From a virus, in the IMG/VR virus record IMGVR_UViG_3300046454_000037, positions 1-35,201 of that record: a stretch of DNA of 35,201 nucleotides. One strand, given 5' to 3'. Positions 5,001 to 32,518 of this stretch are shown piece after piece; the stretch's first letter is position 1, and every line of letters begins with the position of its first letter. The translations under genes were made by a program, and so were the position numbers. The notes beneath the pieces are model-generated. The model was not told where the DNA came from and ran no database searches. It worked only from the letters and a program-made list of their open reading frames with translations.

Positions 5001-5310
5001 GGTCGACGAACTTCGCGCCAGCGTCGACGACGGCCTCTGTGAACGCGACCATCTCGTGGATGGCGAACAACTCGGCCAGACGCTCGACGAGCCGGATCGA
5101 CATGCGCTCGATGCCTGACAGCGAGTCGACAGACGACTGCGACGCACGCTGGATGCCTTCAGCGCCCTGCTCGGCCGCGCGCCCCATGCCTGCGAACGTA
5201 GTCGACGTCTGGTCGCCGAGCAGCCGGATCGACTGCGACGCGCGCTGCGTGACATCCGTCAGGTTGTCGCGCGCGGTGAGTTGAACCTCGAGCGTGCGAT
5301 CACCCGCCAT
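2017..5310 (-). CDS. Tail tape measure protein
   Basis: At 1097 residues this is the longest gene here. It has long alanine/lysine/glutamine-rich helical segments and a glycine/alanine-rich hydrophobic stretch at about residues 675-720, typical of tape measures, which span the tail lumen and reach the host membrane. The C-terminus has proline/glycine-rich linkers followed by a GGYVPHSTFAMVGDAPGGEFI segment of the kind seen at tape measure C-termini. The ATG at 5310 overlaps the tail chaperone fusion stop by 11 nt, the conserved siphophage arrangement. By the usual scaling of roughly 1.5 angstroms per residue the tail would be about 160 nm; that is an inference. Confidence 0.95.
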   Translation of the reverse strand: MAGDRTLEVQLTARDNLTDVTQRASQSIRLLGDQTSTTFAGMGRAAEQGAEGIQRASQSSVDSLSGIERMSIRLVERLAELFAIHEMVAFTEAVVDAGAKFVDLSEKTGLSITYLEQIKPVADKTGSSVDEFAQAIYRMGVNIQDGTTKAKDGLSQLVQATGNQALAWDNLKNMSPEEQFKAIIGALTDMDDVQRANAIGAEIFGRQYQTMAAAVHNGTLKLAEGTKVAGEETIKALKGATDAWVEFKDKAFDASEAGLGAFILALQRVKDKGFAQTLMESGTALDAMEPHLQRQIFMLYGPEGLAAALGLAAAGYKATAKAAQEMRDAVPLDDETEATQKTSAHKAAVEELDRILHANDETLQHLSAAERAHMDVEIASDATAKQLVDTYGISDASATKLIETHKKAAEEAKKSADATAAAAEAHSLFGATLEAIFPDYDKIATDLSEHILSEEQIAKNYHISEVAVKAVAEAEKLRAEQGKTDAKDFKKDFELFTKGWEQHFDEVQKFADQAEANKEEATFRGNAVALAAEQKLSDDTVNIGLTTYEKQRQQIVRWTNTQLSQLGTDDKNYDEHADRIVQIQHKMIAELGPPWIGMVGDIAAGLQSLGQSGVVALAHVAQAAGSVASGLNSAFQAHKQIQAAAARGDVAAEINGWVSGLASAVGQGLQLRNVLGGGALGNIAGGAETGMAIGTMIAPGIGTAIGAGIGAAAGGIASLFGNAARDSVTAFANANGGFDALHAKLLTLGDAGEYMWRALTQGSGSAQHAIDMITTALDKQDAAQKQLTQDQTDQNQALNDLNADIQKYHVTIQQLGPAWKQQNLTLEAKDLIGSYTRLKDAGVDVKDVISDMSGIVTDADGKITGFSGGLNQLLNDAITTGAALPDQFKPILQMLIDNGQAVDGTGQKIKDLSNVKFSQSLDEQFDTLIGKIDKLITALTQGLYPALDGIAGHGGNVGPGPGGGGAADILVEPPGRPSSPSNPNPTPGSPTPQPGDSGGYGDSGIIRFGTGGYVPHSTFAMVGDAPGGEFINTSPQLKAIIAQALAASSGGGDTYQVVINAKTDDPREHARQFIAEVQNNRGGTRTALRTAIGVSGV

Positions 5311-6135
5311 CAGCGTGCTCCTGCCGCGCTACTTCGGCGTCTACGACGGCTTTGCGCACGCATCGGTCGGTCGCTGCTGCCACGACGTCGATCGCGTCCA
5401 TGAGCGCCGCATCCTGCTCGCCGGCTGCGCCAGCGCGTGGCAGCGCGACGCGCCGGTAGTGCGGCTGCGCCATGCCGTTCGCCTCGAGTTCGTGCGTCGC
5501 GTGAAACCACTCGATCGCCTCGCTGACGTCTGGCGTGAACAACTTCACCGGGCAGTCGGTCACCGGCCCGTCCGCCCACGTCGGGAACACTGGCTCGGCC
5601 AGTGGCGTGACGCACCCGCGCTCGTCTTGCAGCCCGCGCTCGATGCACTTGTGGCAACTCAGGCCTGTGTTGGCCCACTCGGTGCCGCGCTCGCGACGGC
5701 TGAGCCACCACCGGAACCGTGTCGCGAGCGCCAGACGTTTTTTGCTGACTCCGTGAACGCGTTGTGGACCATGACCGCGTTCGCGAGCAGGATCATCGTC
5801 GGGCGGTTGCCGCCGAAGGCGTCGACGAGGTCGTCGCCAGTGCGCACCGACACGCCGTCGACGAGGATGGACGATTCGAGCGAGGCGTACCGGCGAATCG
5901 CGTCGACCTCGAACTCCTCGGAGGCGCGGTTCTCCTTCTCGACGCGCGCGGTCAGCGTGTCGACGTGCTCGTCAGTCGCGACCTCGAGCGCCTTGTTGGT
6001 GCGCGCGATGCGGCGGGCGATGTCTTCAGACGTCGCCCGGAACGCGAACGACTGCTCGCGCGTGAAGCGTGCGATGAGCACGACGACCGACTGGCCTTCG
6101 AGGGTCGTCTCGAATCTGTACGGGGTTCTCTGCAT
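5300..6135 (-). CDS. Tail assembly chaperone, long form made by -1 frameshift (lambda G-T analogue)
   Basis: Ribosomes starting at 6135 read 133 codons, slip back one base at 5743-5737, and continue from 5737 to the stop at 5300, giving about 278 residues. The downstream frame encodes a clearly protein-like segment (WWLSRRERG, then GLSCHKC with two cysteines, then EAIEWFHATHEL) but has no start codon of its own before this segment. Expression therefore needs the shift. In lambda the long form bridges the tape measure protein and tail tube subunits during assembly and is absent from the virion. Position directly before the tape measure gene is diagnostic. A predictor ignoring frameshifts would call only 5300-5590 from a GTG and lose the conserved region. 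Confidence 0.88.
5659..6135 (-). CDS. Tail assembly chaperone, short zero-frame form (lambda G analogue)
   Basis: The zero-frame product has 158 residues. ATG 6135 is preceded by CAGGAG about ten bases upstream. The protein is mostly helical, with many charged residues in the middle (RVEKENRASEEFEVDAIRR), and ends in a glycine/serine/alanine tail that is translated only when the ribosome does not slip. It lies between the tail tube gene and the tape measure gene. In characterised siphophages this form is made in excess of the frameshifted one, and the ratio matters for tail length and assembly. Family assignment rests on position and the frameshift signal rather than residue motifs. Confidence 0.9.
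   Translation of the reverse strand: MQRTPYRFETTLEGQSVVVLIARFTREQSFAFRATSEDIARRIARTNKALEVATDEHVDTLTARVEKENRASEEFEVDAIRRYASLESSILVDGVSVRTGDDLVDAFGGNRPTMILLANAVMVHNAFTESAKNVWRSRHGSGGGSAVASAAPSGPTQA
5687..5743 (-). promoter_or_regulatory. Programmed -1 ribosomal frameshift signal
   Basis: On the minus strand the zero frame reads GCA AAA AAC, so the slippery heptamer A AAA AAC lies at 5743-5737. A 5-nt spacer (GTCTG, 5736-5732) follows. Then comes a perfect 11-bp stem, GCGCTCGCGAC at 5731-5721 paired with GTCGCGAGCGC at 5697-5687, closing a 23-nt loop. Slippery site, short spacer and GC-rich stem are exactly the parts of a known -1 frameshift element. Slippage moves the ribosome from the short chaperone frame into the long frame that ends at 5300. 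Confidence 0.92.
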
Positions 6136-6238
6136 CTGGTGATAGCTCCTGAGCGCTCGACACGAGTCGAGCGTGATGTGCGGTGGACTTCAGGAGCCCC
6201 GAGCGGTGAGCGTCAGTCGCGACCGGAGTCAGGCGAGG

Positions 6239-6266
6239 CCCGCGCAGCCGGTGATGGCTGCGCGGG
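6239..6266 (-). terminator. GC-rich hairpin after the tail tube gene (possible attenuator)
   Basis: This is a perfect 11-bp stem (CCCGCGCAGCC and its complement) with a 6-nt loop, in the 217-nt gap between the tail tube and chaperone genes. No U-run follows on the minus strand, so it is not a classical intrinsic terminator. It could be an attenuator or an mRNA-stabilising or processing structure. The rest of this gap has no open frame I would call. Confidence 0.6.
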
Positions 6267-6278
6267 ATTGGTCCGGCC

Positions 6279-6298
6279 GCTCCGACTTTGTTCGGAGC
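6279..6298 (-). terminator. Second hairpin in the tail tube-chaperone gap
   Basis: A 7-bp perfect stem (GCTCCGA/TCGGAGC) with a 6-nt loop lies 12 nt from the neighbouring 11-bp hairpin. Transcripts leaving the tail tube gene meet this hairpin first. No U-tract follows. The tandem arrangement suggests partial termination or 3'-end protection of the abundant tail tube message; this is inference. Confidence 0.5.
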
Positions 6299-6352
6299 AG
6301 AGCGCGTCGCGTGCGTGTTCGATCGTACCGTGAACCGTCGTCTGGCTTGTTT

Positions 6353-7516
6353 CTACAGGTTCGCCACGTAGCACTCGTCGTTGCCGACCGTGCCGAGCGC
6401 CATGCCCTTGAACGACCAGTTCAGTTCGTTGTCCCCGTCCGGCGTCTGCGGGATCTCGATCGAGACGCTCGGATAGTAGAACGCCCACACCTGGCCCTCA
6501 GTGAACCCGATCTGGATGAAGATCGACGTGGGCGCGCCCGACTCGCCGAGCGCGTAGAAGATCGTCGGGTCTTCGACGAAGGCGTCGATCACGAGCGTGA
6601 CCTCGCGCTGGTCCTTCCGGTAGTAGTCGCTCGCGCGGTCCTTGCCCATTTCGCCGATGCGCACGACTTCGTTGTTCTTGATCGTCGTGACGATCTTCTT
6701 GATCTTCGCGGCCGTCGAGGCGCCGACGATGACGCTCGCCGTCATGCCGGTCGGCAGCGCCGTGCCAACCGTCGTGAACGCGCCCGGCTCTGACTGCGAC
6801 GACGGGCGGTTCTGGAACTGCGCCGGTCCGGCGAAGTTCATGAGCGGTTCCTGCGCCTGCTCCAGCGTGAAGCCGAACGTGTCGACGACGCCGCCGAGGA
6901 TCTCGCGCGAGAACGTGACGCCGTTGTTGACGAGGTAGTGCGCCAGATAGATCGACGACGCCAACTCGGTGCCGGGGCTGTAAGTCGTGCCCGTCTTGAA
7001 CGTGTCGGCGACCGTCGGCACGACCGTCAGCGCCGGCGTCCACGTCACGACCGCGCCGGCGACCGTCTGGAGTCTGACCGCGCGTCGCTTGTCGCCAGTC
7101 ACGTTGATGAGCGCCATGTCGCCGACCTGCAGGCCCGTGCCGGAGGTCAGCGTTGCGCCGGTCGACGTCGGCGACGACGCGATCGTCGTCGTCAGCGCGG
7201 CCGCGTGCTTCGCGCCGAAGGCGTTGAGCAACAGCGCGTCGGCTTCGGGCGCGGTGCCGATGGTGCCACTCGGCCACATCGCCATGCTCTTGATGTCGAA
7301 GCCGGCTTCGGCTTCGTGCTGCGTGCGGCGGCGGACTTCCGGCGTGCGGAATCGGTCGTTCGCGTTCGTATACTTGAAGCGGTTGAACGACAACTCGGCA
7401 TTGAGATGCCGCACGGCCTGCGTCGCCGTGATGACCGGCGCAGTGCTGTACGTCGACTCAGCCATCGCGAACAGGCGCCCGAGGCGCCCCAACTGGATAT
7501 TGCCAACAGGCGGCAT
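6353..7516 (-). CDS. Major tail tube protein
   Basis: The product has 387 residues. ATG 7516 has GAGGAG eight bases upstream. The sequence is beta-rich, with a regular pattern of strands and threonine/valine/glycine loops, and ends in an ELNWSFKGMALG strand typical of tail tube subunits, which stack as hexameric rings. An internal region at about residues 110-170 (GLQVGDMALINVTGDKRRAV) looks like an inserted beta domain. It sits between the head-tail joining genes and the tail chaperones, the standard position. It is followed by two hairpins that may end or protect its message, fitting a highly expressed gene. No enzymatic motif is present. Confidence 0.88.
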   Translation of the reverse strand: MPPVGNIQLGRLGRLFAMAESTYSTAPVITATQAVRHLNAELSFNRFKYTNANDRFRTPEVRRRTQHEAEAGFDIKSMAMWPSGTIGTAPEADALLLNAFGAKHAAALTTTIASSPTSTGATLTSGTGLQVGDMALINVTGDKRRAVRLQTVAGAVVTWTPALTVVPTVADTFKTGTTYSPGTELASSIYLAHYLVNNGVTFSREILGGVVDTFGFTLEQAQEPLMNFAGPAQFQNRPSSQSEPGAFTTVGTALPTGMTASVIVGASTAAKIKKIVTTIKNNEVVRIGEMGKDRASDYYRKDQREVTLVIDAFVEDPTIFYALGESGAPTSIFIQIGFTEGQVWAFYYPSVSIEIPQTPDGDNELNWSFKGMALGTVGNDECYVANL

Positions 7517-7520
7517 GTCT

Positions 7521-7766
7521 CTACTCCTCGGTCGCCGGCTTCACCGGCGGGCTAGCTGGCGTCGACTTGACGACAGCGGGTTGGTCAGTGACGAGGTAAA
7601 CGCCGAGCACGTCGCGCAGCGTGTGCGCGGCGACCTTGACGCCACCCTTCTCGGTGCGGGCTGGCACGACGACCTCGTCGGGGTCGACGAGCGTGCCGGC
7701 GACGAGCGACCGGCTGCGTTCGCCGGCTGTGATCGTGACGTTCGCCGTGACTCGCATCTGTGGCAT
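7521..7766 (-). CDS. Small conserved-position tail/connector protein
   Basis: The product has 81 residues. ATG 7766 shares a base with the upstream stop (TAATG), which fixes the start; a longer reading of the same frame up to 8318 is arginine-rich and only a shadow of the neighbour. The N-terminus is beta-like (MRVTANVTITAGERSRSLVAG), and a lysine/proline-rich tail ends in ATEE. It resembles the small protein encoded at 9546-9773 in layout (beta core, then a K/P-rich tail). I do not recognise the family. The position between tail terminator and tail tube genes suggests a virion joining role. Confidence 0.75.
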   Translation of the reverse strand: MPQMRVTANVTITAGERSRSLVAGTLVDPDEVVVPARTEKGGVKVAAHTLRDVLGVYLVTDQPAVVKSTPASPPVKPATEE

Positions 7767-8278
7767 TAGCCTTGACTCCGTGGCAGTCCGTACGTGCGCG
7801 GCTGCAGGTGAATGACGACTGGCTGACGCAGCAGCACGGCGCGCGAGGCGTTGATCGCCATGCCGGGCACGTCGACTGACTCGAGGCGCGTGTCGAGCGC
7901 CAAGCCGTTGCGCTGCACGCGGTCGTCCGAACCGACGAGCGCTGTCTCGACGTCTGCGACCATCTGCGCCCAGAGGTCGAGCTTCGCGCTCGTGTCGGCT
8001 GAGACGACGTCGGCGCGCATGTAGAGGTCGAACGTGAGCACGTCGCGACACCGCCCGCTCGGGTCGAACGAGCGCGTCAGCTTCGGGTCGATGAGGCAGA
8101 TGACAGGCAAGTCGGTGGCGTTCGCCGTGCCGAGCGCAGCCGGGTCGCCAGAGATCGACGTCGCCTTGACGTCGAGGTGGTAGCCGTTCGCGGTCGTGAT
8201 GCCGGCGAGCGCGTCGAGGACGTCGCTGAGGACGTCTGCCAGACGGCTGACCGAGTTGGCCGGGCTTGGCAGACTCAT
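7766..8278 (-). CDS. Tail terminator / tail completion protein
   Basis: The product has 170 residues. ATG 8278 overlaps the stop of the preceding gene (ATGA). The N-terminal helix (ADVLSDVLDALAGITTANGY) followed by beta strands (PVICLIDP, VLTFDLYMRADV) and a second helix (DLWAQMVADVETALVG) matches the alpha-beta fold of tail terminators such as lambda gpU. These form a ring that stops tail tube growth and contacts the head. It lies after the gp10-like gene and before the tail tube gene, the canonical order. The fold assignment is from secondary-structure pattern and position. Confidence 0.78.
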   Translation of the reverse strand: MSLPSPANSVSRLADVLSDVLDALAGITTANGYHLDVKATSISGDPAALGTANATDLPVICLIDPKLTRSFDPSGRCRDVLTFDLYMRADVVSADTSAKLDLWAQMVADVETALVGSDDRVQRNGLALDTRLESVDVPGMAINASRAVLLRQPVVIHLQPRTYGLPRSQG

Positions 8279-12641: not shown

Positions 12642-12716
12642 TGGTGGCTGGCGGCTGGAGTCGAACCAACACCCTCGGGGATGGGCCCCGCGTTCTACCG
12701 TTGAACTACGCCAGCC
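12642..12716 (-). tRNA. tRNA-like gene with a shortened anticodon loop (Gly-CCC like; isotype uncertain)
   Basis: The acceptor strands GGCTGGCG and CGCCAGCC pair over 8 bp, followed by A and an encoded CCA. The D arm is GTTC-AACGGTA-GAAC. The T arm is GTTGG-TTCGACT-CCAGC with a standard loop. The anticodon stem CGGGG/CCCCG closes a loop of only five bases, CCCAT, rather than seven, and U33 is missing. Restoring two bases before CCC would give a normal glycine tRNA loop, and the D-arm sequence is glycine-like. Opening the top pair gives a 7-base loop with CCA (tryptophan) but still no U33. The D and T arms are convincing; decoding ability is doubtful. Two tandem 10-mers (AGAAGCGAGC) lie just downstream, before the protease gene. 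Confidence 0.7.
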
Positions 12717-15447: not shown

Positions 15448-16881
15448 TCAGCGACCGGCCCGCCAGACGCGCACGGCGACGCCGCGCTGCCAGTAGTTGA
15501 GCGCTTGCGTCGTCATGTCGACTTGGTCGTCGTGCTCCGCGTTCGGGAAGTTCGTCAACTCGTGGACGTAGTCTTCGACCCACGGCGCGATCGACGGGTC
15601 GGGGACGTAGAAGTTGCCAGCCTCGATCGTGGCTGAGCACGCCGCGACGCGCGCGATCTTGCTGCCCTGTGGCTCGATGGGCACCATGCCGTCAACGAGG
15701 CCTTTCATGGTCTGCATGACCGCCGGGCCGTTGGCTTTGTCTTCGATGAGTTTCCGAAACGCCTTCGGGTAGGCTGCGGCGAGCGAGCGCAGCGCGGTGC
15801 AGGTCGCCGGCAAGTCGAGGCGCTCCTTGATGCGGTGGACGAGATACTTGGCGGTCCCTTTGCGCGCGAGCACGCCGATGCAGACGTAGTCGCTGCCGGC
15901 TTTGTCCTTGAACGTGCAGTCGGCCGAGATAACCCACTCGTCGAGGTCAGCCGGCAACTCGCGATACGTGCGCAGCCACGCGCGCTTGATCATCGCGCCA
16001 CCAGCGGGCGCTGGCTCTTGCTGCAACTGCCCGGCCGTGCCCATGCCGCCGAGGTCGATCTCGAGGTCCGCGACTGCCTTCGCGCTGAAGCCGGCTGGCC
16101 AGAGCAGGTCGCCATCGTGCTCGCGCGGGTCAACGAAGCCGGTCGACGTCGCCGGGCGCACCGTCGCGCCGCGTCGCATCGGCAAGCACAGATGGACCCA
16201 GTTGCCTTTCTTCAGCAGATGCCCGGTGAGGTCGTTCTCGTGCAAGCGCTGCATGACGACGACGCGGCGCACGTTGCGAATGACGCCGCGCGTCGAGATC
16301 GTGCGGTCGTACCAGTTGAGCGCTGACTGGCGCTGGTCGTCGGACTCGGCCTGCTTCGTATTGTGCGGGTCGTCGATGATGACGCGGTCTGGATGCTCGC
16401 CCGTGCCGACGCCACCGACTGACGTCGCGAGGCGCCAGCCCTTCGCGGTCGTGTCCATGCGCGTCTTGCGGTTCTGGTCGCTGCGCAGTTGCACGTACGG
16501 GAACGACTGCCGATACCAGTCGCTCTGCACGACGTCGCGCACCTTCAGTTGGTCGCGCACGCTCAGGTCTTCAGCGTAGGACGCCGCCAGGAATCGCGTG
16601 TTCGGGTTGCGCGCCCACTCCCACGCTGGCCACAGCACGCTCACGAGCAGCGACTTGCCAGTGCCAGGCGGGATGTTGATGATCAGGTTCTTGATGTCGC
16701 CGCGCGTGACCGCCTCGAGATGGTCGCAGACGACGTCGATATGCCAGTTTGGAATCAGCGGCGAGTCCGGCTCGACGATGGGCCACGCTTTCTCGACGAA
16801 GTAGCGCAGCGAGCGGCGCGCGCGCTCGGCTTGGACGTCGGTCAGCGACGGCAGCGTGAGCGTGTCAGCCACGCTTGTCAT
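15448..16881 (-). CDS. terL: Terminase large subunit (packaging ATPase/nuclease)
   Basis: The product has 477 residues. The ATPase domain has Walker A PPGTGKS (71-77), Walker B RVIIDDP (DD at 171-172), and a coupling segment VVVMQRLHENDL. The RNase H-like nuclease domain has its acidic residues at SADCTFKD (D322), LIEDKANG (E381/D382) and AEHDDQVDM (D452-453). It cuts concatemeric DNA and pumps it through the portal. It overlaps a small membrane-protein gene at its start by 17 nt and lies directly before the portal. The small subunit is about 3.3 kb away (20152-20853), with accessory genes between; adjacent placement is more usual. Confidence 0.97.
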   Translation of the reverse strand: MTSVADTLTLPSLTDVQAERARRSLRYFVEKAWPIVEPDSPLIPNWHIDVVCDHLEAVTRGDIKNLIINIPPGTGKSLLVSVLWPAWEWARNPNTRFLAASYAEDLSVRDQLKVRDVVQSDWYRQSFPYVQLRSDQNRKTRMDTTAKGWRLATSVGGVGTGEHPDRVIIDDPHNTKQAESDDQRQSALNWYDRTISTRGVIRNVRRVVVMQRLHENDLTGHLLKKGNWVHLCLPMRRGATVRPATSTGFVDPREHDGDLLWPAGFSAKAVADLEIDLGGMGTAGQLQQEPAPAGGAMIKRAWLRTYRELPADLDEWVISADCTFKDKAGSDYVCIGVLARKGTAKYLVHRIKERLDLPATCTALRSLAAAYPKAFRKLIEDKANGPAVMQTMKGLVDGMVPIEPQGSKIARVAACSATIEAGNFYVPDPSIAPWVEDYVHELTNFPNAEHDDQVDMTTQALNYWQRGVAVRVWRAGR

Positions 16882-18550: not shown

Positions 18551-18826
18551 TCATGCGAACTCCTTGCCCTTGAAGGCGTCGAGCGGCAGTGGCTCGCCGT
18601 CGAGCGTGTAGACCGGCAGCCGCGCGCCGTTCTCCGTCACGCGCGAGACGCCTGCGTGGGCGTAGCGGCGGATGGGATACACGGGCGCGGACATCGGCAC
18701 GTCGCCGAGCGGGTAGAACAGCGCCCGCAGCGTCGACGCGAACGGCACGCGCACGACGTCGTCGAGCGACACGACCTCGACGATGCGCTCCTGCGCGAAC
18801 GGCAGCAGCACAACGACGCGCGTCAC
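18551..18826 (-). CDS. Hypothetical beta-rich protein
   Basis: The product has 91 residues from a GTG at 18826 that overlaps the glycosyltransferase stop (GTGA). The sequence shows alternating strands (RVVVLLPFAQERIVEVVSLDDVVRVPF, then PVYTLDGEPLPL) and ends in KGKEFA. A longer reading to 18883 would run back through the glycosyltransferase end and is not preferred. No recognised motif. Tight coupling suggests it is made with the glycosyltransferase. Confidence 0.72.
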   Translation of the reverse strand: MTRVVVLLPFAQERIVEVVSLDDVVRVPFASTLRALFYPLGDVPMSAPVYPIRRYAHAGVSRVTENGARLPVYTLDGEPLPLDAFKGKEFA

Positions 18827-20091
18827 GGCTCTACTGCCGGGCGCGACGCCCCATCGCCGCCACAGGTCTCGCACGTGACCCACGTCGATTCTTCGGCCAT
18901 GCCGCCGGTGTCTTCAGACGGCGACACGTCGCGCGTGATCTCGATCGCGCCTTTGCCGTCGCAGTGCTCGCACACGTTCGCAGTTGGCGTGTCGTCGACG
19001 ACCGGCACGACCGGCGCGTCGTCGTTGATGACGAGCGTCATGTCTGGCGTGCGCATCGGCGGCGGGTCAGCGACCTCGATGCGCTTGTTGCGCTTGAACC
19101 GGCCGTAGTCGACGTAGTGCTGCCAGCGGTTGAAGCGCCAGATCACGCGCGCCACGTCGGGGTGCTGCTCGCGCAGCGACTCGGCCATCTTCAGCCGGCC
19201 GTCGTCCTTGTAGAGTTCGTCGGTGTTGCCGCCCTTCATCGTCATCGTCGCGGCCTTCATCGCGAGGAAGGCGTTGAACAGGAGCGTGCAGTAGCCGTCC
19301 TTCAGCGCGCGCAACGACAGGTCGGTGTCCTCGTTGTAGCGTCCGCGCCAGCGATACGGGATCGCGTTGTCGATGAGGATGCAGGAGTAAACGCGCGTGT
19401 TTGGCACGAACGCGGGCGGGCCGAACTTGCGCTTCGCCAAGAAGTCGTAGTTCATGCCGCAGAGGGCGACGTTCTCGAACTTGTCCGCGAAGTCTTCGAT
19501 CGCGACGAACGGCACGGGGTCGGCGCACTGGATCTTGGCGTTGTCGTGCAGCCGATAGAACCCGCGGATGTTGTCGTCGAGAATCCAGTGTCGCGTCGCG
19601 CCGGTCGACTGCGCGTGGTCCCACACCCAGTTGCGCGCCGGAATCGAGCCTTGGCCGAGGTTGCTGAACGGCAGCGTGAGAATCTTCGCCGGGTCGATGA
19701 CGGCGGCGTAAGCGTCGAACTCTTGCGGCTCGACGACGATCGAGTACGGCACGCGCATCGCCTCGAGCGCTTTGCTCGTGAGTCGCGACTCGGCGCGCCC
19801 TTTCGAGATGATGTAAACCGGATACTTTGGCACGACGAGCGCGCTCGCGTGCCAGCGCTTGTTCGCGAACTCCGCCAGCTCAGCCTTGGGGTGCCAGACG
19901 AACTTCGTCCGGTCGCTGAGCGCTTGCCCGATTACCTGCGCGAACGCCGCGCGGTCGGCTTCGTTGCGAAAGTGGACCTTGAGCGTCTGCCACGGCGCGA
20001 GGTTCTCGTGGTCGTAGGCCGGCATGTCGGCCCAGTCGTCGCGCCACTTCTCTGGCAGTTCAAACAGCGCTGGCTGCTCTGGGGTTGGCAT
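18823..20091 (-). CDS. TAGT-like glycosyltransferase with two DnaJ-type zinc motifs
   Basis: The product has 422 residues from ATG 20091 (a TTG at 20100 is an alternative). Residues about 35-75 form a small phage domain (WQTLKVHFRN, TKFVWHP). Residues 88-320 match the TET-associated glycosyltransferase pattern: PVYIISKGRAESRLTSKAL, a VVEPQEFDAY segment, SIPARNWVW, the acidic LDDNIRGFY (D172, D173), and YNEDTDLSLR near 255. TAGT enzymes of phages are linked to sugars added to 5-hydroxymethylcytosine. The C-terminus adds CEHCDGKG (Cys 374/377) and CETCGGDG (Cys 407/410), the CxxCxGxG repeats of DnaJ zinc fingers. No TET/JBP oxygenase is visible in this window. Glycosyltransferase fold: likely; DNA as acceptor: inference. 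Confidence 0.85.
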   Translation of the reverse strand: MPTPEQPALFELPEKWRDDWADMPAYDHENLAPWQTLKVHFRNEADRAAFAQVIGQALSDRTKFVWHPKAELAEFANKRWHASALVVPKYPVYIISKGRAESRLTSKALEAMRVPYSIVVEPQEFDAYAAVIDPAKILTLPFSNLGQGSIPARNWVWDHAQSTGATRHWILDDNIRGFYRLHDNAKIQCADPVPFVAIEDFADKFENVALCGMNYDFLAKRKFGPPAFVPNTRVYSCILIDNAIPYRWRGRYNEDTDLSLRALKDGYCTLLFNAFLAMKAATMTMKGGNTDELYKDDGRLKMAESLREQHPDVARVIWRFNRWQHYVDYGRFKRNKRIEVADPPPMRTPDMTLVINDDAPVVPVVDDTPTANVCEHCDGKGAIEITRDVSPSEDTGGMAEESTWVTCETCGGDGASRPAVEP

Positions 20092-20151
20092 TGCTGCCAA
20101 GTCTGCATATTCCCCAAAGAGAACACCAGCGGTCCCTTTTGCGAAGACCGC

Positions 20152-20853
20152 CTACGGCTTGCCATCCGTGATGCGCTGCAGGTGGACCCGTTCGAGCACT
20201 TCAAGGTCCGCCGCGCTGAGCGTCGCCAAGTCGGCGCGCGCCAGCTGCACTGGCCCGCCGCCCGGCCCGGTCACTTCGTGGCGTTCTCGGTAGCGCTCCG
20301 GCATCAGCCCCTTGGCGAAGAAGATCAGGAGCGTGTCGCTGTACTCGCGCGTCGTGCCGACAAGTCGGCCGTTCTGATATACCGGCTGCTCGACCCCGTC
20401 GTGGCCACGCCTGAAGATTTCAGCCTCGATGCGGTCGCACGCCATGCGACGCGCGACCTCGAGCGCGGCCGCAAACGGCGTGTCCGGGTCTTTGCGCCAG
20501 TTGTAGGCCGTGCTCTCGCAGATGCCGACAGCTTTGCACGACAGGCGCACGTTGCCGGTCATGGCGAACGTCGCCAGCCACTTGCGCTTTTTTGGGTCTA
20601 CAACCTCCGCGAACGCCGGCGGGTCGAGCGCGACGACGTCGGGTTTCGACAGTTCAGCCCCGCGAAACGGTGGCGGGTAGCGGCTGCTCGTCGGGGCGCC
20701 CTGCAGCGCGTCGCTCTGAGGCCGGCTAGGCGCATCGGTCACGCCCGGCGACTGGTTAGCTGTCTCGACGGTCGGTCGACGCTGAGGCCGGCGCTGGCTG
20801 GCTTTGGCTGGCTGTCTGACGCGCTTGCTGGTTGCTGACTGACGACGAGTCAC
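20152..20853 (-). CDS. Terminase small subunit
   Basis: I choose the GTG at 20853, preceded by GGGGAGG, giving 233 residues; the frame also allows a start at 20898. The first 75 residues are basic, proline/glutamine-rich and probably disordered. A helix-turn-helix follows at about 95-130 (KWLATFAMTGNVRLSCKAVGICESTAYNWRKD), the fold used to recognise the packaging site. Then comes a helical region with LLIFFAKGLMPERYRER, typical of phBC6A51-type small terminases, and a C-terminal part for large-subunit contact. It recognises concatemer DNA and stimulates TerL. Confidence 0.88.
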   Translation of the reverse strand: MTRRQSATSKRVRQPAKASQRRPQRRPTVETANQSPGVTDAPSRPQSDALQGAPTSSRYPPPFRGAELSKPDVVALDPPAFAEVVDPKKRKWLATFAMTGNVRLSCKAVGICESTAYNWRKDPDTPFAAALEVARRMACDRIEAEIFRRGHDGVEQPVYQNGRLVGTTREYSDTLLIFFAKGLMPERYRERHEVTGPGGGPVQLARADLATLSAADLEVLERVHLQRITDGKP

Positions 20854-20869
20854 GCCCCCCTCCCCTGCC

Positions 20870-21130
20870 CTACTGCGGGCGCGTCGGGCCGTCGACAATC
20901 GAGTCCGGCGACAGCACGAGCCACGGGTGGGTGAAGACGACCTGGAGCACGACGCCGTTGTCGAGCGTGAGCTGGCGCCAGCGCTGGTCAGACTTGTCGA
21001 GGAAGTCGAACGTGTCGACGATCGTGCGCCCGATCATCCACGTCTCAGGCCGCGTGATCTTGCGTTCGTCGCCGAGCACGCCGCCGACGACTTCGGGGCG
21101 CTTGCCGGATGACTTGCGGATAGGTTTCAT
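20870..21130 (-). CDS. Hypothetical protein
   Basis: The product has 86 residues from ATG 21130, with a weak GGGGA site. The N-terminus is basic (KPIRKSSGKRPE), followed by a beta-like region (RPETWMIGRTIVDTF, LTLDNGVVLQVVFTHPWLVLSPD). It overlaps the end of the ribbon-helix-helix gene by 86 nt, which is large for this genome, so an internal start (ATG at residue 32) remains possible. Family not recognised. Confidence 0.65.
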   Translation of the reverse strand: MKPIRKSSGKRPEVVGGVLGDERKITRPETWMIGRTIVDTFDFLDKSDQRWRQLTLDNGVVLQVVFTHPWLVLSPDSIVDGPTRPQ

Positions 21131-21569
21131 GGTCCCCGTGTTCGGTGATGAGGGCTTCGGCTAAGTCCGAAGCGCTCTTGTGCGTGCGCGTCTGCGCGGC
21201 GGCGAGCGCGTCGAGCGCTGGCGGCGTCATGCGAATCGCGTAGACGTTCTGGCCAAGCTTGGGCGAGAACAGCACGCCCGGTCGATCGCGATACGTCTCG
21301 GTGGTCAGGCTCGAGGCGTGCGCGAGCACAAGCGTCGTCAGCACGTCGTTGCGGCTGAGTCGATGCGTCGTGCAAAGGCTCGCGAGCGCAGCACGCCCGG
21401 CCTCAGTCATGTCGACGTAGACGGTGCGCGCCAAGTCTTTGCCGGGGTAGGCGGTCTTGCGGCCTGCGCCGGGGCGCGTCCCGCCACGTTGACGTTGCGC
21501 GTCGGGCGGCTGCTCCACTCTGACGATAGTATCGTCTGAATCGAACCCACGCACCAGCGAGGCGAACAT
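21045..21569 (-). CDS. Putative ribbon-helix-helix DNA-binding protein
   Basis: The product has 174 residues. ATG 21569 directly follows the previous stop. The motif RGGTRPGAGRK at about 28-38 is common at the start of phage DNA-binding proteins. Two segments each look like a beta strand followed by two helices: ARTVYVDMTEAGRAALASLC with the following helix, and YAIRMTPPALDALAAAQTRTHKSASDLAEALITEHGD. That is the ribbon-helix-helix layout, duplicated in one chain. The arginine-rich last 25 residues overlap the next gene and may be a by-product of frame overlap. Likely a transcriptional regulator. Confidence 0.68.
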   Translation of the reverse strand: MFASLVRGFDSDDTIVRVEQPPDAQRQRGGTRPGAGRKTAYPGKDLARTVYVDMTEAGRAALASLCTTHRLSRNDVLTTLVLAHASSLTTETYRDRPGVLFSPKLGQNVYAIRMTPPALDALAAAQTRTHKSASDLAEALITEHGDHETYPQVIRQAPRSRRRRARRRTQDHAA

Positions 21570-21854
21570 CTACGCGCTCTCGCTCGCGCGCTCGGCCGTG
21601 ACGATGGCGGCGTCGACGTGCGCGAGCACGCGCAGCAGTTCATGCGTCGCGCGCGCGAAGGCGATGCGCTGCGAGTCCGCGAGCACGACGCCATCCGCGT
21701 AGAGGGTCGAGTCGAGCGCCTGCAGCGAGGCGTCGAGCGCGCCTGAGACGCGGCGCAGTTGCTTCGCAGTGCGGGCGTGGCCTTTCTTGACGGCTGCCAG
21801 GCAGTGCTGCGCGCGTTGACGAGCGAGCGTGGTTGATAGTGAGAGTTTCGGCAT
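21570..21854 (-). CDS. Hypothetical helical protein
   Basis: The product has 94 residues. ATG 21854 has AAGGAGG five bases upstream, which decides the start over an upstream in-frame codon at 21899. The protein is almost entirely helical and alanine/leucine-rich (LARQRAQHCLAAVKKGHARTAKQLRRV, HELLRVLAHVDAAIVTAERASE). It may be a small coiled-coil or nucleic-acid-associated protein. No motif is recognised. Confidence 0.75.
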   Translation of the reverse strand: MPKLSLSTTLARQRAQHCLAAVKKGHARTAKQLRRVSGALDASLQALDSTLYADGVVLADSQRIAFARATHELLRVLAHVDAAIVTAERASESA

Positions 21855-21864
21855 GGTGTCCTCC

Positions 21865-22173
21865 TTAGCGGTCGCAGTCTTTGTCGATGACCGGCCCATA
21901 GATGGGCGCGATCACGTGCGCGCCGACGTGGTCGCCGTGAACGACGATGAGGCGTCGACAGCGGGTGCAGTGGGCGTCCCACACGATGCCAGCAGCATAG
22001 CGTCGCGCCTTGAACTTGCCCAGCTCGTGCAGGCGTCGCTTCGCCATCGCGCGCGCTTCACGCTTCAGCCCCCCAAGGTAGCCGAAGCCGTCGTCGGGGT
22101 TGTGGCGTCGCAGTTCGCGCTCGCCTATCTCGCGCAGGTTCAGCCGGGCCGGGCGTCGTCGCGTCGTCTTCAC
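21865..22173 (-). CDS. Small basic zinc-knuckle-like protein
   Basis: The product has 102 residues from a GTG at 22173 overlapping the previous stop (GTGA) with GGAGG upstream. The first 60 residues are basic and helical. The later region has HCTRCRRLIVVHGD, a single Cys-x2-Cys pair, with CDR at the C-terminus. This could be half of a zinc ribbon. Nucleic-acid binding is plausible but unproven. Confidence 0.72.
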   Translation of the reverse strand: MKTTRRRPARLNLREIGERELRRHNPDDGFGYLGGLKREARAMAKRRLHELGKFKARRYAAGIVWDAHCTRCRRLIVVHGDHVGAHVIAPIYGPVIDKDCDR

Positions 22174-22580
22174 TTCGCCCTCCGCTTGATGTCGAGGCCC
22201 TGCTGCTCGACGATGTTGCGCATCCACGTATTGGCGAATCGCGTGTGGTCGCGCTGCACGCGGTCATTCACGCTCGCGACGTGCCCGTTGACGATGACGA
22301 GCGACTCCTGCTCGACGTGCGCGTAGTCGTTGCGCCAGTACGAGGCGAAGTAGTCGCCTGACTCGTCGCGGTAGAACACCATCTCAGGGTCGCGCATCAG
22401 GTCGCCGTTCTGCTCGCCGTAGTGCGCGACTGAGAACCGATGCGGCCAGATCAACTCGACGTGGACCGCCATGAACGTGCCAGGGCGGCTGTTGAGCGTG
22501 CGCGCTGGCTGGCTGCTCGTCAGCCCCGAGGTCAGCGCGTCGAGCACGTCGCGGGCGTACTGGTTCACTGCTATCGCCAT
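22170..22580 (-). CDS. Conserved phage protein, DUF6908-like
   Basis: The product has 136 residues. Of two ATGs, the one at 22580 has GGAGG at correct spacing, while 22589 sits directly on the ribosome site. The segment MAVHVELIWPHRFSVAHYGEQNGDLMRDPEMVFYRD has the strongly conserved look of a phage domain I associate with DUF6908; the call is by memory of the pattern. A beta-rich half (YFASYWRNDYAHVEQESLVIVNG) follows. The molecular function is unknown. It lies downstream of the amidoligase/amidotransferase pair on the same strand. Confidence 0.78.
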   Translation of the reverse strand: MAIAVNQYARDVLDALTSGLTSSQPARTLNSRPGTFMAVHVELIWPHRFSVAHYGEQNGDLMRDPEMVFYRDESGDYFASYWRNDYAHVEQESLVIVNGHVASVNDRVQRDHTRFANTWMRNIVEQQGLDIKRRAK

Positions 22581-22594
22581 GATGTCCATCCTCC

Positions 22595-22954
22595 CTAGAC
22601 GAAGCGCAGCCGATGCGCGCGTGCCGCTGACGCCTGACGCTGCAGGCGCTCGCGCTCGCCAGTGCTGAGCAGCGCGTCAGCCGCGCGCGACTCGTCGTCG
22701 TAGGCGTCAGCCGCCCGGCCGAGCGCAGCAGCGATCTCGTCGCGCTCGTCGCTGTCGAACGCGACCCGCGTGCTCGTCGTCGCCGCATCGACGACGATGT
22801 CGAACAGGCGCGCCTGCTTCTCGAGGCGGTTCGCGCACTCGGCCAGCAGGTCGGCCATGCGCTGCACGCGCGCGGTGTCGTTGAACGGTTCGCGGTGGCG
22901 CGTCAGTTGCTCGCAGCGCGCGCGGGTGACGAGGTCGAGGGTGATGCTGTCCAT
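22595..22954 (-). CDS. Hypothetical helical protein
   Basis: The product has 119 residues. ATG 22954 has AAGGAGG nine bases upstream; the longer frame to 23131 is rejected because its extra part is the complement of the neighbouring gene. The protein appears all-helical with many charged residues (RMADLLAECANRLEKQARLFDIVVDAA, EIAAALGRAADAYDDESRAAD). Function is unknown. It lies 2 nt after the amidotransferase gene and is probably co-translated. Confidence 0.78.
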   Translation of the reverse strand: MDSITLDLVTRARCEQLTRHREPFNDTARVQRMADLLAECANRLEKQARLFDIVVDAATTSTRVAFDSDERDEIAAALGRAADAYDDESRAADALLSTGERERLQRQASAARAHRLRFV

Positions 22955-22956
22955 GA

Positions 22957-23715
22957 CTACTTGCCTCCTTTGGTCGTGTCGCCGGTGAGCGACATCTGGC
23001 GCCACTCGTCGCGCGTCGAGCCGGCCGCCGTCTCGCGCGTCGGGCCGCTGAAGCGCGGGACGAAGCGCGGCGACGTGTCGCACGCCGGGTGCGGGCGTTG
23101 ACGCTTCTCGTGATGCTCTGACCCGAGCCACACGCTCGTCGTCTTCTTGGCCGGCGCGCTCGTCGTCGACGGGACGCGCTCGCGCAAGAACCAGCCGTTC
23201 GACGCGCGCACGCCGTTCAGGATGTGGATCCAGTTGCCGCGAATGTGAACCTTCTCTGGCGTCATGACGACGGTCTTCTGCGTCAGCGGGACCACGCTGT
23301 AGAGCGCCTCGACGTCATACTCCTTGACGATCGCCGCCATCGCGCGCGTGTCGCTCCACGCAGTCTTGTCGACGTCGACGTATTCCTCCCAGTCGTGCCA
23401 GTGGCCGTTGTGAAACAGGACGCCAGCCTTCGACTTGCCGCGCGTCGCGAGCGCGTTCGACTTCGGGTTCAGCGTGAACGGGTGGCACAGTTCGGGGATT
23501 TTCCCGCCGACAGTCGCGATGCGCGCGTGGAACACATACGGCATCGGCACGCTGCGCGCGAGTTCCTTGACGCGCGCGACGGTGATGCCCTTCTCGAACA
23601 CGACGACGTCGTCGTTGATCCACGCGAACCCGTTGCCGTCCGGGTTGGCCTGCACGGCCGCGTCGATGAGAGTGTTGGACAGCCGGCGACTTTCAGCGAT
23701 CAGGATGACGCACAT
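22957..23715 (-). CDS. Class II glutamine amidotransferase-like Ntn hydrolase
   Basis: The product has 252 residues. ATG 23715 follows GGAGAGG. The protein begins Met-Cys, so removal of Met would expose an N-terminal cysteine nucleophile as in class II amidotransferases. Further support comes from NPDGNGFAW at 25-33, HARIATVGG near 63-71, CHPF at 77-80, and VLFHNGHW near 97-104, whose Asn-Gly pair matches the oxyanion motif. The last 80 residues are a basic, low-complexity extension. The enzyme would release ammonia from glutamine. It follows the amidoligase gene on the same strand, a pairing reported for predicted phage amide-modification systems; the substrate is unknown. Confidence 0.82.
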   Translation of the reverse strand: MCVILIAESRRLSNTLIDAAVQANPDGNGFAWINDDVVVFEKGITVARVKELARSVPMPYVFHARIATVGGKIPELCHPFTLNPKSNALATRGKSKAGVLFHNGHWHDWEEYVDVDKTAWSDTRAMAAIVKEYDVEALYSVVPLTQKTVVMTPEKVHIRGNWIHILNGVRASNGWFLRERVPSTTSAPAKKTTSVWLGSEHHEKRQRPHPACDTSPRFVPRFSGPTRETAAGSTRDEWRQMSLTGDTTKGGK

Positions 23716-23748
23716 GAGAACCTCTCCTTCGTCGAGATACCAGTGAGT

Positions 23749-23782
23749 GGGCCGAGCAGTCGTCTCGTCGACTGCCCGGCCC
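23749..23782 (-). terminator. Interrupted hairpin between amidoligase and amidotransferase genes
   Basis: Two 6-bp stems (GGGCCG/CGGCCC outer, CAGTCG/CGACTG inner) are separated by a 2x2 internal loop and capped by a 6-nt loop, in the 80-nt gap between these genes. There is no U-tract. It may reduce read-through or set the relative dose of the two enzymes. Confidence 0.55.
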
Positions 23783-23795
23783 GGTGTCTGTCGTG

Positions 23796-24677
23796 CTACG
23801 CGCTCACGCGGCGGCGGCGTGACCCGCCGTCATACTTCTTGGCCATCTTGCGGAGCACCTTGAGCATCGGCAACATCTGCGAGGCGTCGAGCACGCCAGC
23901 CGGCGTGCGACCGACGCGCGGCGTCTTGCGCCAGTTCAGGTGGCAGAGCATGTCGCCGAGCGCGAACACGCCAGGCGTCTGACCGGCAGCGCGCGCCGGC
24001 AGGTCGAACGACCACGGCAGCGGCGCGCGCGGGCAGTCGAGCGCCTTCTGCACGATGCCGAGGCACAGTTGGATGTAGGCCGCCATCTTCGTCGCGTTGA
24101 GCGTGCCTGCGAACACCCGAAACTCGACCGTGCGGGCGCGACCGTTGATCAGGTTGTGCAAGTTCAGCACGTGATAGCGCGACACGCCAGCGCTGACGAT
24201 CTCGCGCTCGCTCGTCATGTTCTCCAGCGCGCGGTAGCTGGTGCGAATCGAGGCGCAGTAGCGGTTGTGGTCGCGCGTGTGCGTGCCGGTCGCCGCGAGC
24301 AGCGCGCGCTCGTGGTAGGCGACGAAGCGCACGAGGCGGCGCAACTGCTCCGTCGTGCCGTTCCAGCCGATGTGAACGTGAAAGCCAGTCGAGCCGTTGA
24401 CCTTCGCGCCCATCGACTTCAGCTTGGCAGCCATCGCGGCGACGCTGCGCAGACCGTCGATGCCCTTGAGCACGGGCGAGACGACTTCGACGCCGACGTT
24501 CGGATACTGCGACGCGATCGAGCCGTCGTGCTGCGTCGTCCAGCCGTCGTGTCCCGGCACCGCGTGTCCGCAGTGATAACCACCGACGCCCCACGACTCG
24601 CGCAGTATTGACGGCTGCGGGATGGTGGTCTCGATCTCGACTCCGAAGGTCAGCGTGTTCAGGTCCGTGCGGCGCAT
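23796..24677 (-). CDS. Amidoligase (ATP-dependent COOH-NH2 ligase family)
   Basis: The product has 293 residues. ATG 24677 has AAGGAG seven bases upstream and its own promoter. The family core is clear: FGVEIET at 11-17 (E14, E16 as metal ligands), GW and HDGS near 46-53, VEVVSPVL at 63-70, a GFHVHIGW motif at 98-105 (H100, H102), and TVEFRVFAGTL at 183-193 (E185, R187). These are hallmarks of the glutamine-synthetase-like Amidoligase_2 family, which joins a carboxyl group to an amine using ATP. The next gene encodes an ammonia-releasing amidotransferase, suggesting a paired reaction. The physiological substrate (peptide, wall component or modified base) cannot be read from sequence. Confidence 0.9.
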   Translation of the reverse strand: MRRTDLNTLTFGVEIETTIPQPSILRESWGVGGYHCGHAVPGHDGWTTQHDGSIASQYPNVGVEVVSPVLKGIDGLRSVAAMAAKLKSMGAKVNGSTGFHVHIGWNGTTEQLRRLVRFVAYHERALLAATGTHTRDHNRYCASIRTSYRALENMTSEREIVSAGVSRYHVLNLHNLINGRARTVEFRVFAGTLNATKMAAYIQLCLGIVQKALDCPRAPLPWSFDLPARAAGQTPGVFALGDMLCHLNWRKTPRVGRTPAGVLDASQMLPMLKVLRKMAKKYDGGSRRRRVSA

Positions 24678-24696
24678 GTCGTCTCTCCTTGTTTCG

Positions 24697-24717
24697 TTCT
24701 GACGACCATCGTCAGAA
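24697..24717. promoter_or_regulatory. Operator-like inverted repeat at the amidoligase promoter
   Basis: The sequence is a perfect palindrome of 9-bp arms (TTCTGACGA/TCGTCAGAA) with a 3-nt centre. It lies immediately downstream of the predicted transcription start and upstream of the amidoligase ribosome site, where a bound dimeric repressor would block transcription. A hairpin in the 5' leader is the alternative. Confidence 0.72.
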
Positions 24718-24730
24718 TCAAACTTGAATG

Positions 24731-24759
24731 ATTATGACGATACGCCAGATAGGTGTCAA
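24731..24759 (-). promoter_or_regulatory. Sigma70-type promoter for the amidoligase operon
   Basis: The minus strand has a perfect TTGACA (24759-24754), a 17-nt spacer, and CATAAT (24736-24731). Transcription would start near 24724, about 47 nt before the amidoligase ATG. The surrounding DNA is visibly less GC-rich than the rest of the window. This is the strongest promoter I can see inside the long gene series. Confidence 0.82.
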
Positions 24760-24826: not shown

Positions 24827-25405
24827 CTACCGCTGCGCGTCGGCCACAGCGCGGCACTCGCGGGCCTCGTCGCGCATTCTGCGCATGAACGCGCGCTGGT
24901 CTGCCGCGTCCTTGCACTCGACGACGACGTCGAACGTGTGCGCGACGTCGCGCGCGTCGTCGTCAGCCTCGAGCGCGCGACCGTAGAGCGCGTCGAGTTC
25001 GCCAGTCGTCCAGAACTTCGACAAGTCCGCGCCGTCTGCTTGCAGCGCGCGCAGCGTGTCGACGTCCCACGCCAAGCCAACTTCGGCGGTGCGGTTGTCA
25101 GCGATCGCCAGTTCCATCGCCATCGCGTCCGTCGCGAGATCGAGGTCGGTGCGCTGCACGACGACCAGCTTGGTCCCGTCAGTCGGCACGACGACGATGC
25201 GCGTGAGGCCAATGCTCGCGCACGCCTCGAGGGTCTTGTTGCCGGCGATCACGACGCCGTGTTTGTCGACGACGATCGATCGCGCTGCGCCGTAGCTGCT
25301 CAGGCTCGACTCGACGGCCTGCGCGCCGCGCTCGGTGCCGGTGTTCGCGTTGCGCGGGTCCGGCCGTAAGTCGTCCATCTGCGTGAGAGTCGCGCGCTCA
25401 CGCAT
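24827..25405 (-). CDS. ParB/Srx-like nuclease-fold protein
   Basis: The product has 192 residues. ATG 25405 follows GAGG and overlaps the previous stop by 8 nt. The N-terminal 100 residues match the ParB fold: DLRPDPRNANTGTERGAQAVESSL at 12-35, then IVVDKHGVVIAGNKTLEACASIG at 44-66 (the IxxGxxxxxA strand-helix), then VVVPTDG. Phage versions often sit with DNA methylases. The C-terminal half has acidic helices and a Phe/Asp strand region. After the stop, a 6-bp hairpin (24805-24824) may separate it from the amidoligase promoter. Function (nuclease, CTPase or specificity factor) is not shown. Confidence 0.85.
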   Translation of the reverse strand: MRERATLTQMDDLRPDPRNANTGTERGAQAVESSLSSYGAARSIVVDKHGVVIAGNKTLEACASIGLTRIVVVPTDGTKLVVVQRTDLDLATDAMAMELAIADNRTAEVGLAWDVDTLRALQADGADLSKFWTTGELDALYGRALEADDDARDVAHTFDVVVECKDAADQRAFMRRMRDEARECRAVADAQR

Positions 25406-28476: not shown

Positions 28477-29366
28477 CTTGAAGACTCCTCGTTGGCGATC
28501 GCCTGCACCGCGCGTTGCACCGCCGCGCGCGACTTCGCGCCCTTGGTTGTTGGCGCGCTCGCGTTCGGCAGCACGCCGAAGCGCGCGGCGAACTGCTTGC
28601 GCCAGAAGCGGTCGGGGTCGTCGCCGATGGGTTCGTTCGGGTCGAGCGCGGCGATCGTGTCGGCGTAGAACGCCTTCAGGCGCGCCTCGCGCGTCGCGAC
28701 GTCGCCGCCAACCGAGCCGAGCTGCTCCTCGAAGATCCAGCGCGTGACGCACTTGCCGCGCTCGAAATCGCACCACGCGTGCTGGCCGTGTCGACGCTGT
28801 GATTGGCCGTCAATGAGACTCGCAGCGACGGCTTGCCGTGGGTGGATCGCGCGCGCGAGCGCTGATACACCTACTGCGCTCTCTGCAGTAGGTGTATCTG
28901 CAGATTGAAGATCGAAGATCGCAGAGTCATTTTTTGGCCATGGCTGAGGCGTAGCTACCCCATTGGGTGGGTTAATGGGTCCCCCATTGGGTCCCCCATT
29001 GGGTAAGCCATTGGGTCCCCCATTGTTCGAGCCACCCCCACCCCAGCGACGAGTCGCGCCACGACGACCACCCTCAGCTTGTCGCTCAGCGAACTCCTGC
29101 TGGCGCGCGCGCTGCTGCTCGAGGCGCCGATTGATCCAGCCGGCGTCAGTCCTCACCCACTTCTCGGCGACGACCTGCCACAGCCGGCGGAACTCAGCCT
29201 CAGACGCGCCTACGATGCGCGCCAGACGCAACTCGTCGACCGGCAGCGGGCCATTACCCCACGACCAGAGCAGCAGGCGAATGTAGACCCCGACTTCAGC
29301 GCACGACATCGGAGCAGTTCCGTCGAGAAAGTCCTTGGCATACATCTGGAAAGCTGGCGGCTTCAC
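28473..29366 (-). CDS. Replication initiator-like protein with DUF1376 domain (lambda O position)
   Basis: The product has 297 residues from a GTG at 29366 overlapping the previous stop (GTGA), with AGGAG five bases upstream. Residues 5-75 are a DUF1376/YdaU-type winged-helix domain (FQMYAKDFLDGTAPMSCAEVGVYIRLLLWSWGNG, then RLARIVGASEAEFRRLW). A basic helix follows (RRLEQQRARQQEFAERQAEGG). Then comes a Pro-Asn-Gly repeat linker at about 113-140, encoded by a 12-bp repeat array, and a less GC-rich stretch. A C-terminal helical domain ends in EESSR. Domain order and origin-like repeats inside the gene resemble lambda O. The initiator function is inferred from these and the loader-like next gene. 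Confidence 0.85.
   Translation of the reverse strand: MKPPAFQMYAKDFLDGTAPMSCAEVGVYIRLLLWSWGNGPLPVDELRLARIVGASEAEFRRLWQVVAEKWVRTDAGWINRRLEQQRARQQEFAERQAEGGRRGATRRWGGGGSNNGGPNGLPNGGPNGGPINPPNGVATPQPWPKNDSAIFDLQSADTPTAESAVGVSALARAIHPRQAVAASLIDGQSQRRHGQHAWCDFERGKCVTRWIFEEQLGSVGGDVATREARLKAFYADTIAALDPNEPIGDDPDRFWRKQFAARFGVLPNASAPTTKGAKSRAAVQRAVQAIANEESSR
28864..28898. repeat. 14-bp perfect inverted repeat inside the initiator gene
   Basis: The arms GATACACCTACTGC and GCAGTAGGTGTATC are separated by 7 nt. This is low-GC sequence within a GC-rich gene, about 60 nt from the 12-bp repeat array. It could be an initiator-binding or strand-opening element of an origin. It is not followed by a U-tract on either strand. 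Confidence 0.85.
28960..29025. repeat. Array of 12-bp direct repeats, candidate origin iterons
   Basis: The core CCATTGGGT recurs at exact 12-bp steps starting at 28960, 28984, 28996 and 29008. The register at 28972 is degenerate (TTAATGGGT), and the one at 29020 is truncated after CCATTG. The unit is CCCCCATTGGGT and codes for four residues (Asn-Gly-Gly-Pro) of the initiator linker. Spacing of one helical turn or slightly more would place bound proteins in a regular array. Confidence 0.85.
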
Positions 29367-32492: not shown

Positions 32493-32518
32493 GGGGCTGG
32501 CGTGACGCCGCCAGCCCC
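32493..32518 (-). terminator. Terminator-like hairpin between DGQHR gene and annealase gene
   Basis: The perfect 10-bp stem GGGGCTGGCG/CGCCAGCCCC with a 6-nt loop lies 6 nt after the DGQHR gene stop. On the minus strand it is followed by ACGTTTCACC, only a short T-run. It is a likely attenuator inside the early operon. Confidence 0.62.

Follow-up and report, generated by a model that had tools for sequence, protein, structure and literature searches.

We analyzed a 35,201-base IMG/VR virus record (hereafter, the window), which is linear and probably a fragment. The window encodes an amidoligase followed by a class II glutamine amidotransferase (GAT), and a promoter and an operator-like inverted repeat lie upstream of this pair (Table 1). 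Long, GC3-rich ORFs prevail on the minus strand. Family scans identify minus-strand structural genes (portal, head protease, major capsid protein, connector proteins, and a likely tape-measure gene), as well as recombination, primosomal, and regulatory genes in the right part of the window.

Table 1. Positions of window features discussed in the text.
Feature	Position	Strand	Details
tRNA-Trp (cca)	12642-12716	-	in the gap separating the head protease gene from the next upstream gene
Terminase large subunit	15448-16881	-	family scans
TET-associated glycosyltransferase (TAGT)	18823-20100	-	PF20691, 2.6e-43; between terminase small and large subunits
Terminase small subunit	20152-20898	-	family scans
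Gene downstream of GAT	22595-22954	-	119 aa
Class II glutamine amidotransferase (Ntn) domain protein, GlmS-like (GAT)	22957-23715	-	252 aa; profile, fold, residues
Amidoligase_2 protein	23796-24677	-	293 aa; PF12224, E 2.3e-29; phrog_2443, 2.9e-37
Operator-like inverted repeat	24697-24717	.	TTCTGACGA-TGG-TCGTCAGAA; perfect 9-bp arms, 3-nt center
Sigma-70-type promoter, TTGACA-N17-CATAAT	24731-24759 (24759-24731 as read)	-	TTGACACCTATCTGGCGTATCGTCATAAT; consensus match
Third half-site copy	24732-24740	-	TCGTCATAA; overlaps -10 element
ParB-like protein	24827-25405	-	phrog_620, 4e-20; directly upstream of amidoligase

Several minor features of the window were also recorded. The C-terminal CxxC/CxxC tail of the TAGT protein weakly resembles a DnaJ zinc finger, and viral contigs often encode close relatives of this protein (identity up to 73%). 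A DUF1376 primosomal ORF contains a perfect inverted repeat (28864-28898, 14-bp arms, 7-nt loop) with arms longer than any found in 30 simulated windows (maximum 13). GC-rich perfect hairpins lie between ORFs at 32493-32518 and 6239-6266 (10- and 11-bp arms, respectively) and are possible terminators or regulatory sites.

Regulatory sequences upstream of the pair

A first-pass annotation of the window had assigned the two genes a private promoter and operator. The promoter it named, TTGACA-N17-CATAAT, is exact: this sequence has one match in the window and none in 100 shuffles, and its score of 11/12 is the best in 19 kb (p<0.005 by shuffling). The ‘perfect 21-bp palindrome’ it named does have arms that are perfect over 9 bp, but it is not a perfect 21-mer because its 3-nt center is non-palindromic. 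About five repeats with 9-bp arms of this type are expected per 35 kb, but shuffling the 149-bp intergenic stretch 20,000 times produced one in just 80 cases. This stretch holds the lowest-GC 60-mer of the window (0.40). The half-site TCGTCAKAA is present in three copies in the window, all inside 44 bp at this site (0.32 expected). A putative operator covering the -10 element and the start of the leader can fairly be inferred from this arrangement.

The claim of private regulation stands with respect to the promoter, as judged by its consensus match. Privacy itself is not established, because the next gene starts 2 nt past the GAT stop codon and no minus-strand terminator-like site was found from 20152 to 24677. 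The Shine-Dalgarno sequence of this downstream gene (AGGAGG) sits inside the 3′ end of the GAT gene, and the two genes therefore probably do not form a closed transcription unit. Transcripts likely continue into the genes downstream of GAT.

We dropped two broader interpretations of this region. The palindrome of the window was not seen in relatives, and the inverted repeats that L089 and L248 have at this site are unrelated to it; we thus do not describe a conserved operator. Counting the window, just 4 of 41 non-redundant GAT-type loci have an upstream promoter scoring at least 10/12, so such a promoter does not characterize the family as a whole. In another relative (L018), TTGACA and TATAAA flank a TATCACTGTGATA palindrome upstream of the amidoligase (start ~5992), an operator-like arrangement.

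Predicted folds and conserved residues

The amidoligase scores 103.4 bits against PF12224, above the gathering cut-off of 22. Across 50 relatives, D51, S53, E64, V66, G98, H100, N172, E185, and R187 are invariant and E14, E16, W46, S67, and P68 are near-invariant. Foldseek matched an AlphaFold2 model of the protein (made with an alignment of relatives; pLDDT 90.5, pTM 0.91) to YbdK (8e-6), GlnA (7e-5), and PafA (3e-4) with probability 1.0, and glutamate-cysteine ligase (GCL) and Dop were also among the structural matches. The amidoligase is thus a member of the Amidoligase_2 family with a predicted GS/GCS-type ATP-dependent carboxylate-amine ligase fold, in which the conserved acidic, His, and Arg residues are present. 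A sequence search of the PDB found no amidoligase relative. Scanning viral contigs with P0001 or P0002 as single proteins gave no matches, and alignments were required.

The GAT protein begins with Met-Cys (MCVILI) and contains the motifs NPDGNG, HARIATVG, CHPF, and HNG. As a single sequence it has no Pfam match; several of its relatives match GATase_4 in single-sequence Pfam searches, and a profile built from 38 sequences hits the glutaminase domain of GlmS (4e-17). Residues M1, C2, G29, H63, R65, T68, H78, P79, N103, G104, and D122 are invariant in 38 relatives. Alignment to GlmS places the N-terminal nucleophile Cys after Met, the HxRxxT and NG motifs, and the Asp, and we take the invariant C2, R65, T68, N103-G104, and D122 to be counterparts of the GlmS residues that attack or bind glutamine.

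An AlphaFold2 model of GAT (also made with an alignment of relatives) is folded over residues ~1-185, with core pLDDT mostly >90 and predicted disorder at residues 191-216 and 225-252. Foldseek matched this model to 1xff (2e-5, probability 1.0, overall TM ~0.45), and the closest folds are the glutaminase domains of GlmS, PurF, and AsnB, which are ammonia donors. GAT is thus predicted to have a glutaminase-domain fold of the GlmS/PurF type. Since TM-scores are ~0.45, the likeness to known enzymes is at the level of the fold. EgtC was reached by the GAT profile only with an E value of 0.49 and is absent among the 50 Foldseek matches listed for the GAT model. Given the far stronger profile match to GlmS, we dropped the idea that GAT is simply an EgtC as a statement of family membership and kept it as possible chemistry.

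These results bear out the first-pass description of an amidoligase with intact motifs (through the PF12224 match and conservation in 50 relatives) beside a Met-Cys protein with an HNG amidotransferase motif, in which every catalytic and glutamyl-binding residue is present. Loss of catalytic residues, which would have counted against the first-pass interpretation, was not seen in the relatives of either protein.

Linkage of the pair and exchange of partners

Amidoligase profiles identified 382 viral loci and an independent GAT profile identified 239, and the best 80 of each were kept. An amidoligase is present at 75 of the 80 GAT loci (best 80 of 239), mostly 4-120 nt upstream of GAT (usually within 125 nt) and in reverse order in a few loci. 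At one of the five GAT loci left (L088/L248), a divergent amidoligase lies directly upstream and scores 20.4 bits, just below the cut-off. Rarity of co-occurrence, which would count against pairing, thus did not appear in this neighborhood survey. Together with the kept catalytic residues, the co-occurrence supports the earlier proposal that amidoligase and GAT function as a unit.

Amidoligase-GAT pairing is already known in many phages, having reportedly been described by Iyer in 2009. UFV-P2 and other LUZ24-like phages encode Amidoligase_2, GATase_6, ATP-grasp, and AIG2 proteins (PMC3890496), and the OM43 phages MEP401/402 carry the pair (PMC10580990). The pairs of phiEco32, UFV-P2, MEP401/402, and Arthrobacter phage Ottawa resemble that of the window in that the same two families are present, usually close together, with a predicted joint function. 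The window pair differs in being only ~35-38% identical to its nearest relatives and in having TAGT and ParB nearby, whereas the second ligase, the ATP-grasp enzyme, and AIG2 of UFV-P2 were not recognized beside it. Prophages have been found to encode an amidoligase with GGCT (PMC11318856, PMC11253131). Those of Firmicutes (C. clostridioforme LM41, Terrisporobacter) share with the window the ligase family and a nearby gamma-glutamyl-cleaving gene, but the partner is GGCT rather than GAT.

Where an amidoligase lacks GAT, a different gamma-glutamyl-cleaving enzyme is almost always encoded nearby, in most cases downstream. The alternative partners are GGCT (PF06094) and, rarely, Peptidase_C26 (PF07722, 1e-41; loci L011 and L018). 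Of the 73 viral loci having 2.5 kb or more of downstream sequence, 68 carry one of the three enzymes (20 GAT only, 43 GGCT only, 3 both, 2 C26) and 5 carry none. The mutual exclusion of GAT and GGCT is significant (p 2e-9; non-redundant p 3e-5), and a 111-row tree implies at least nine switches between these partners. The tree rows nearest to the window carry C26, GGCT, both, and C26, with modest supports near the window. GAT and GGCT are fused in one protein in two phages (C75C1 and ctfjg026).

Two other neighbors recur. A ParB gene is found within ~5 kb of 51 of 104 GAT loci and 27 of 45 GGCT loci, and thus accompanies both partner types. A stand-alone MgsA/RarA C-terminal domain protein (L133 2268-2825 and relatives) is encoded in 55 of 104 GAT-type amidoligase neighborhoods and in 0 of 45 GGCT-only neighborhoods.

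DNA-modification genes and candidate functions

The TAGT of the window is a possible partner in DNA modification. TAGT genes lie within ~5 kb of 52 of 104 GAT-type loci and 0 of 45 GGCT-type loci (16/42 and 0/29 when non-redundant). Of 40 contigs selected for GAT-type (plus a few closely related C26 or GGCT) amidoligases, 16 have TAGT genes, as against 0 of 39 control amidoligase contigs, which are mostly GGCT-type. TET/JBP genes show a similar distribution (4 of 31 GAT-type contigs, E 1e-23 to 1e-25; 0 of the 39 controls).

Three relatives have the amidoligase-GAT pair inside or beside a TET/JBP hypermodification cluster. Contig L254 encodes TET/JBP, ParB, and terminase and, at 3349-8140(-), GATase_6, GNAT, an ADDT amino acid:DNA transferase (PF18724, 1.5e-21), a P-loop kinase (PF18751), amidoligase, and GAT. 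We regard this cluster, which has two amidotransferases, as a candidate operon for DNA hypermodification. Contig L252 encodes ParB and TET and, further along, TAGT, amidoligase, and GAT. The cultured Arthrobacter phage Ottawa encodes, within a single gene block, amidoligase (gp65), GAT (gp66), three ParB proteins, a TET-like protein (gp74), and a kinase (gp75), followed by terminase. Ottawa gp74 is a weak TET match (28.4 bits, under the 34.9 cut-off) and is 52% identical to a protein of Arthrobacter phage Altadena annotated as Tet-like; gp75 matches Ploopntkinase3 (PF18751) at 1.4e-39. Altadena itself has TET, glycosyltransferase, and deacetylase genes, and no amidoligase is annotated in the stretch of its genome consulted.

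Amide-bearing DNA bases, one of the outcomes considered by the first-pass annotation, thus gain contextual support from clusters of TET, TAGT, ADDT, and kinase genes in relatives. The window has TAGT and ParB, whereas this 35-kb fragment yielded no TET, thymidylate-synthase-like hydroxymethylase, C5 methylase, or ADDT. When 80 close relatives of the window TAGT were surveyed, a single one had an amidoligase within 10 kb. At this one locus (L315), TAGT, amidoligase, and GAT occur in a row, and the GAT is of another subtype with no significant match to that of the window. Most of the GAT-TAGT association comes from one broad amidoligase branch, that of the window, and a test on phylogenetically independent pairs gave no significance. 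Five of six annotated phage records that carry the pair genes show no TAGT or TET. Because TAGT so rarely accompanies an amidoligase, a DNA-base role for the window is plausible, not more, and with the result for independent pairs this led us to drop the claim that the window TAGT proves such a role.

We lean, at somewhat less than even confidence, toward the pair being a two-component glutamine-dependent amide former whose product in the branch of the window is most likely a hypermodified DNA base. The GS-fold ligase would activate a carboxylate using ATP, and the class II amidotransferase would cleave the gamma-amide of glutamine and pass ammonia to the ligase reaction, so that a product made by the phage would gain a carboxamide (or another amide). 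On DNA, TET/JBP would oxidize a pyrimidine that would then be phosphorylated, aminoacylated, or glycosylated, and a carboxyl group would be amidated, probably to evade host restriction. This scheme presumes ammonia transfer rather than gamma-glutamyl transfer or removal, DNA as the substrate, and, for the phage of the window, a hydroxymethylation step encoded outside the fragment. It is supported by the predicted folds, the intact catalytic residues, the tight adjacency of the genes, and the DNA-modification genes of relatives; one point against it is that GGCT and Peptidase_C26, the other partners, do not donate ammonia. Judging from gene neighborhoods, tailoring of DNA bases leads the candidate substrate reactions for this amidoligase branch. 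A more specific version is possible though doubtful: the pair may be a dedicated amide-forming tailoring step that amidates the carboxylate of an aminoacyl or oxidized pyrimidine produced by TET/JBP, a kinase, and an amino acid:DNA transferase. If true, it would reveal a previously undescribed class of amide-bearing DNA bases and answer a question about the substrate of phage amidoligases that has stood since 2009.

The exchange of partners fits a common chemistry on gamma-glutamyl amides, glutamine included, and therefore keeps alive a protect-and-remove model with precedents in EgtA/EgtC, BtrJ/BtrG, and PuuA/PuuD. The ligase would add a gamma-glutamyl group to the amine of a phage or host metabolite and the partner, with GAT acting as an EgtC-like hydrolase, would later cut the gamma-glutamyl bond. 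That three unrelated gamma-glutamyl-cleaving enzymes fill the downstream slot argues for this model, as do the exclusion of GAT and GGCT, the repeated switches (including among the nearest relatives of the window), the GAT-GGCT fusions, and the GATase_4 matches. EgtA/EgtC of ergothioneine synthesis is likewise a gamma-glutamyl ligase with a hydrolase of class II GAT fold, but no ergothioneine genes were recognized in the window, and fold and profile both place GAT with GlmS, PurF, and AsnB rather than EgtC. The neighborhoods also differ, with TAGT and TET absent from GGCT-type loci, and on balance we consider protect-and-remove somewhat unlikely.

We regard as quite unlikely a role in the cell envelope, in which the pair would make or amidate a host-surface peptide or polymer and so block superinfection. 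A strong sigma-70 promoter suits a separately expressed accessory gene, and passages in three papers credit Iyer et al. 2009 with predicting a cell-wall role, as reportedly suggested for phiEco32 (PMC10580990, PMC11318856, PMC11253131). However, neither the window nor the relatives examined showed a cell-wall gene next to the pair; the neighbors there are instead ParB, TET, TAGT, kinase, terminase, and AAA proteins, and we found no experiment on the function of such pairs in the literature examined. Peptide or protein tagging, by a GS-fold ligase that joins a peptide or amino acid to a protein in the manner of the Pup ligase PafA, is suggested by structural matches between the ligase model and PafA and Dop. 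It is highly improbable given that YbdK and glutamine synthetase match this model better, that no Pup-like peptide was recognized adjoining the pair, and that a GlmS-like glutaminase has no part in pupylation.

For amide formation on DNA bases, phage 9g Gat-QueC offers an example of a GAT domain that works in DNA-base modification (PMC6884629), although it acts with a QueC domain on preQ0 and without a GS-fold ligase. Phage amidoligase/GAT pairs have been annotated for more than 15 years with a predicted role only. The survey presented here gives firm linkage and interchangeable partners that point to gamma-glutamyl amide chemistry. It also provides the partner-exclusion pattern and the DNA-modification neighborhood, which may be new relative to Iyer 2009 and 2013. 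The gene pair of the window is real and, as a pair, ordinary. Its substrate is directly testable by nucleoside mass spectrometry and enzyme assays, since the DNA-modification neighborhood is present in the cultured phage Ottawa. Positions 37401-44903 of Ottawa correspond to 402-7904 of contig L349, and the TET-like protein and kinase are annotated there only as oxidoreductase and adenylate kinase.
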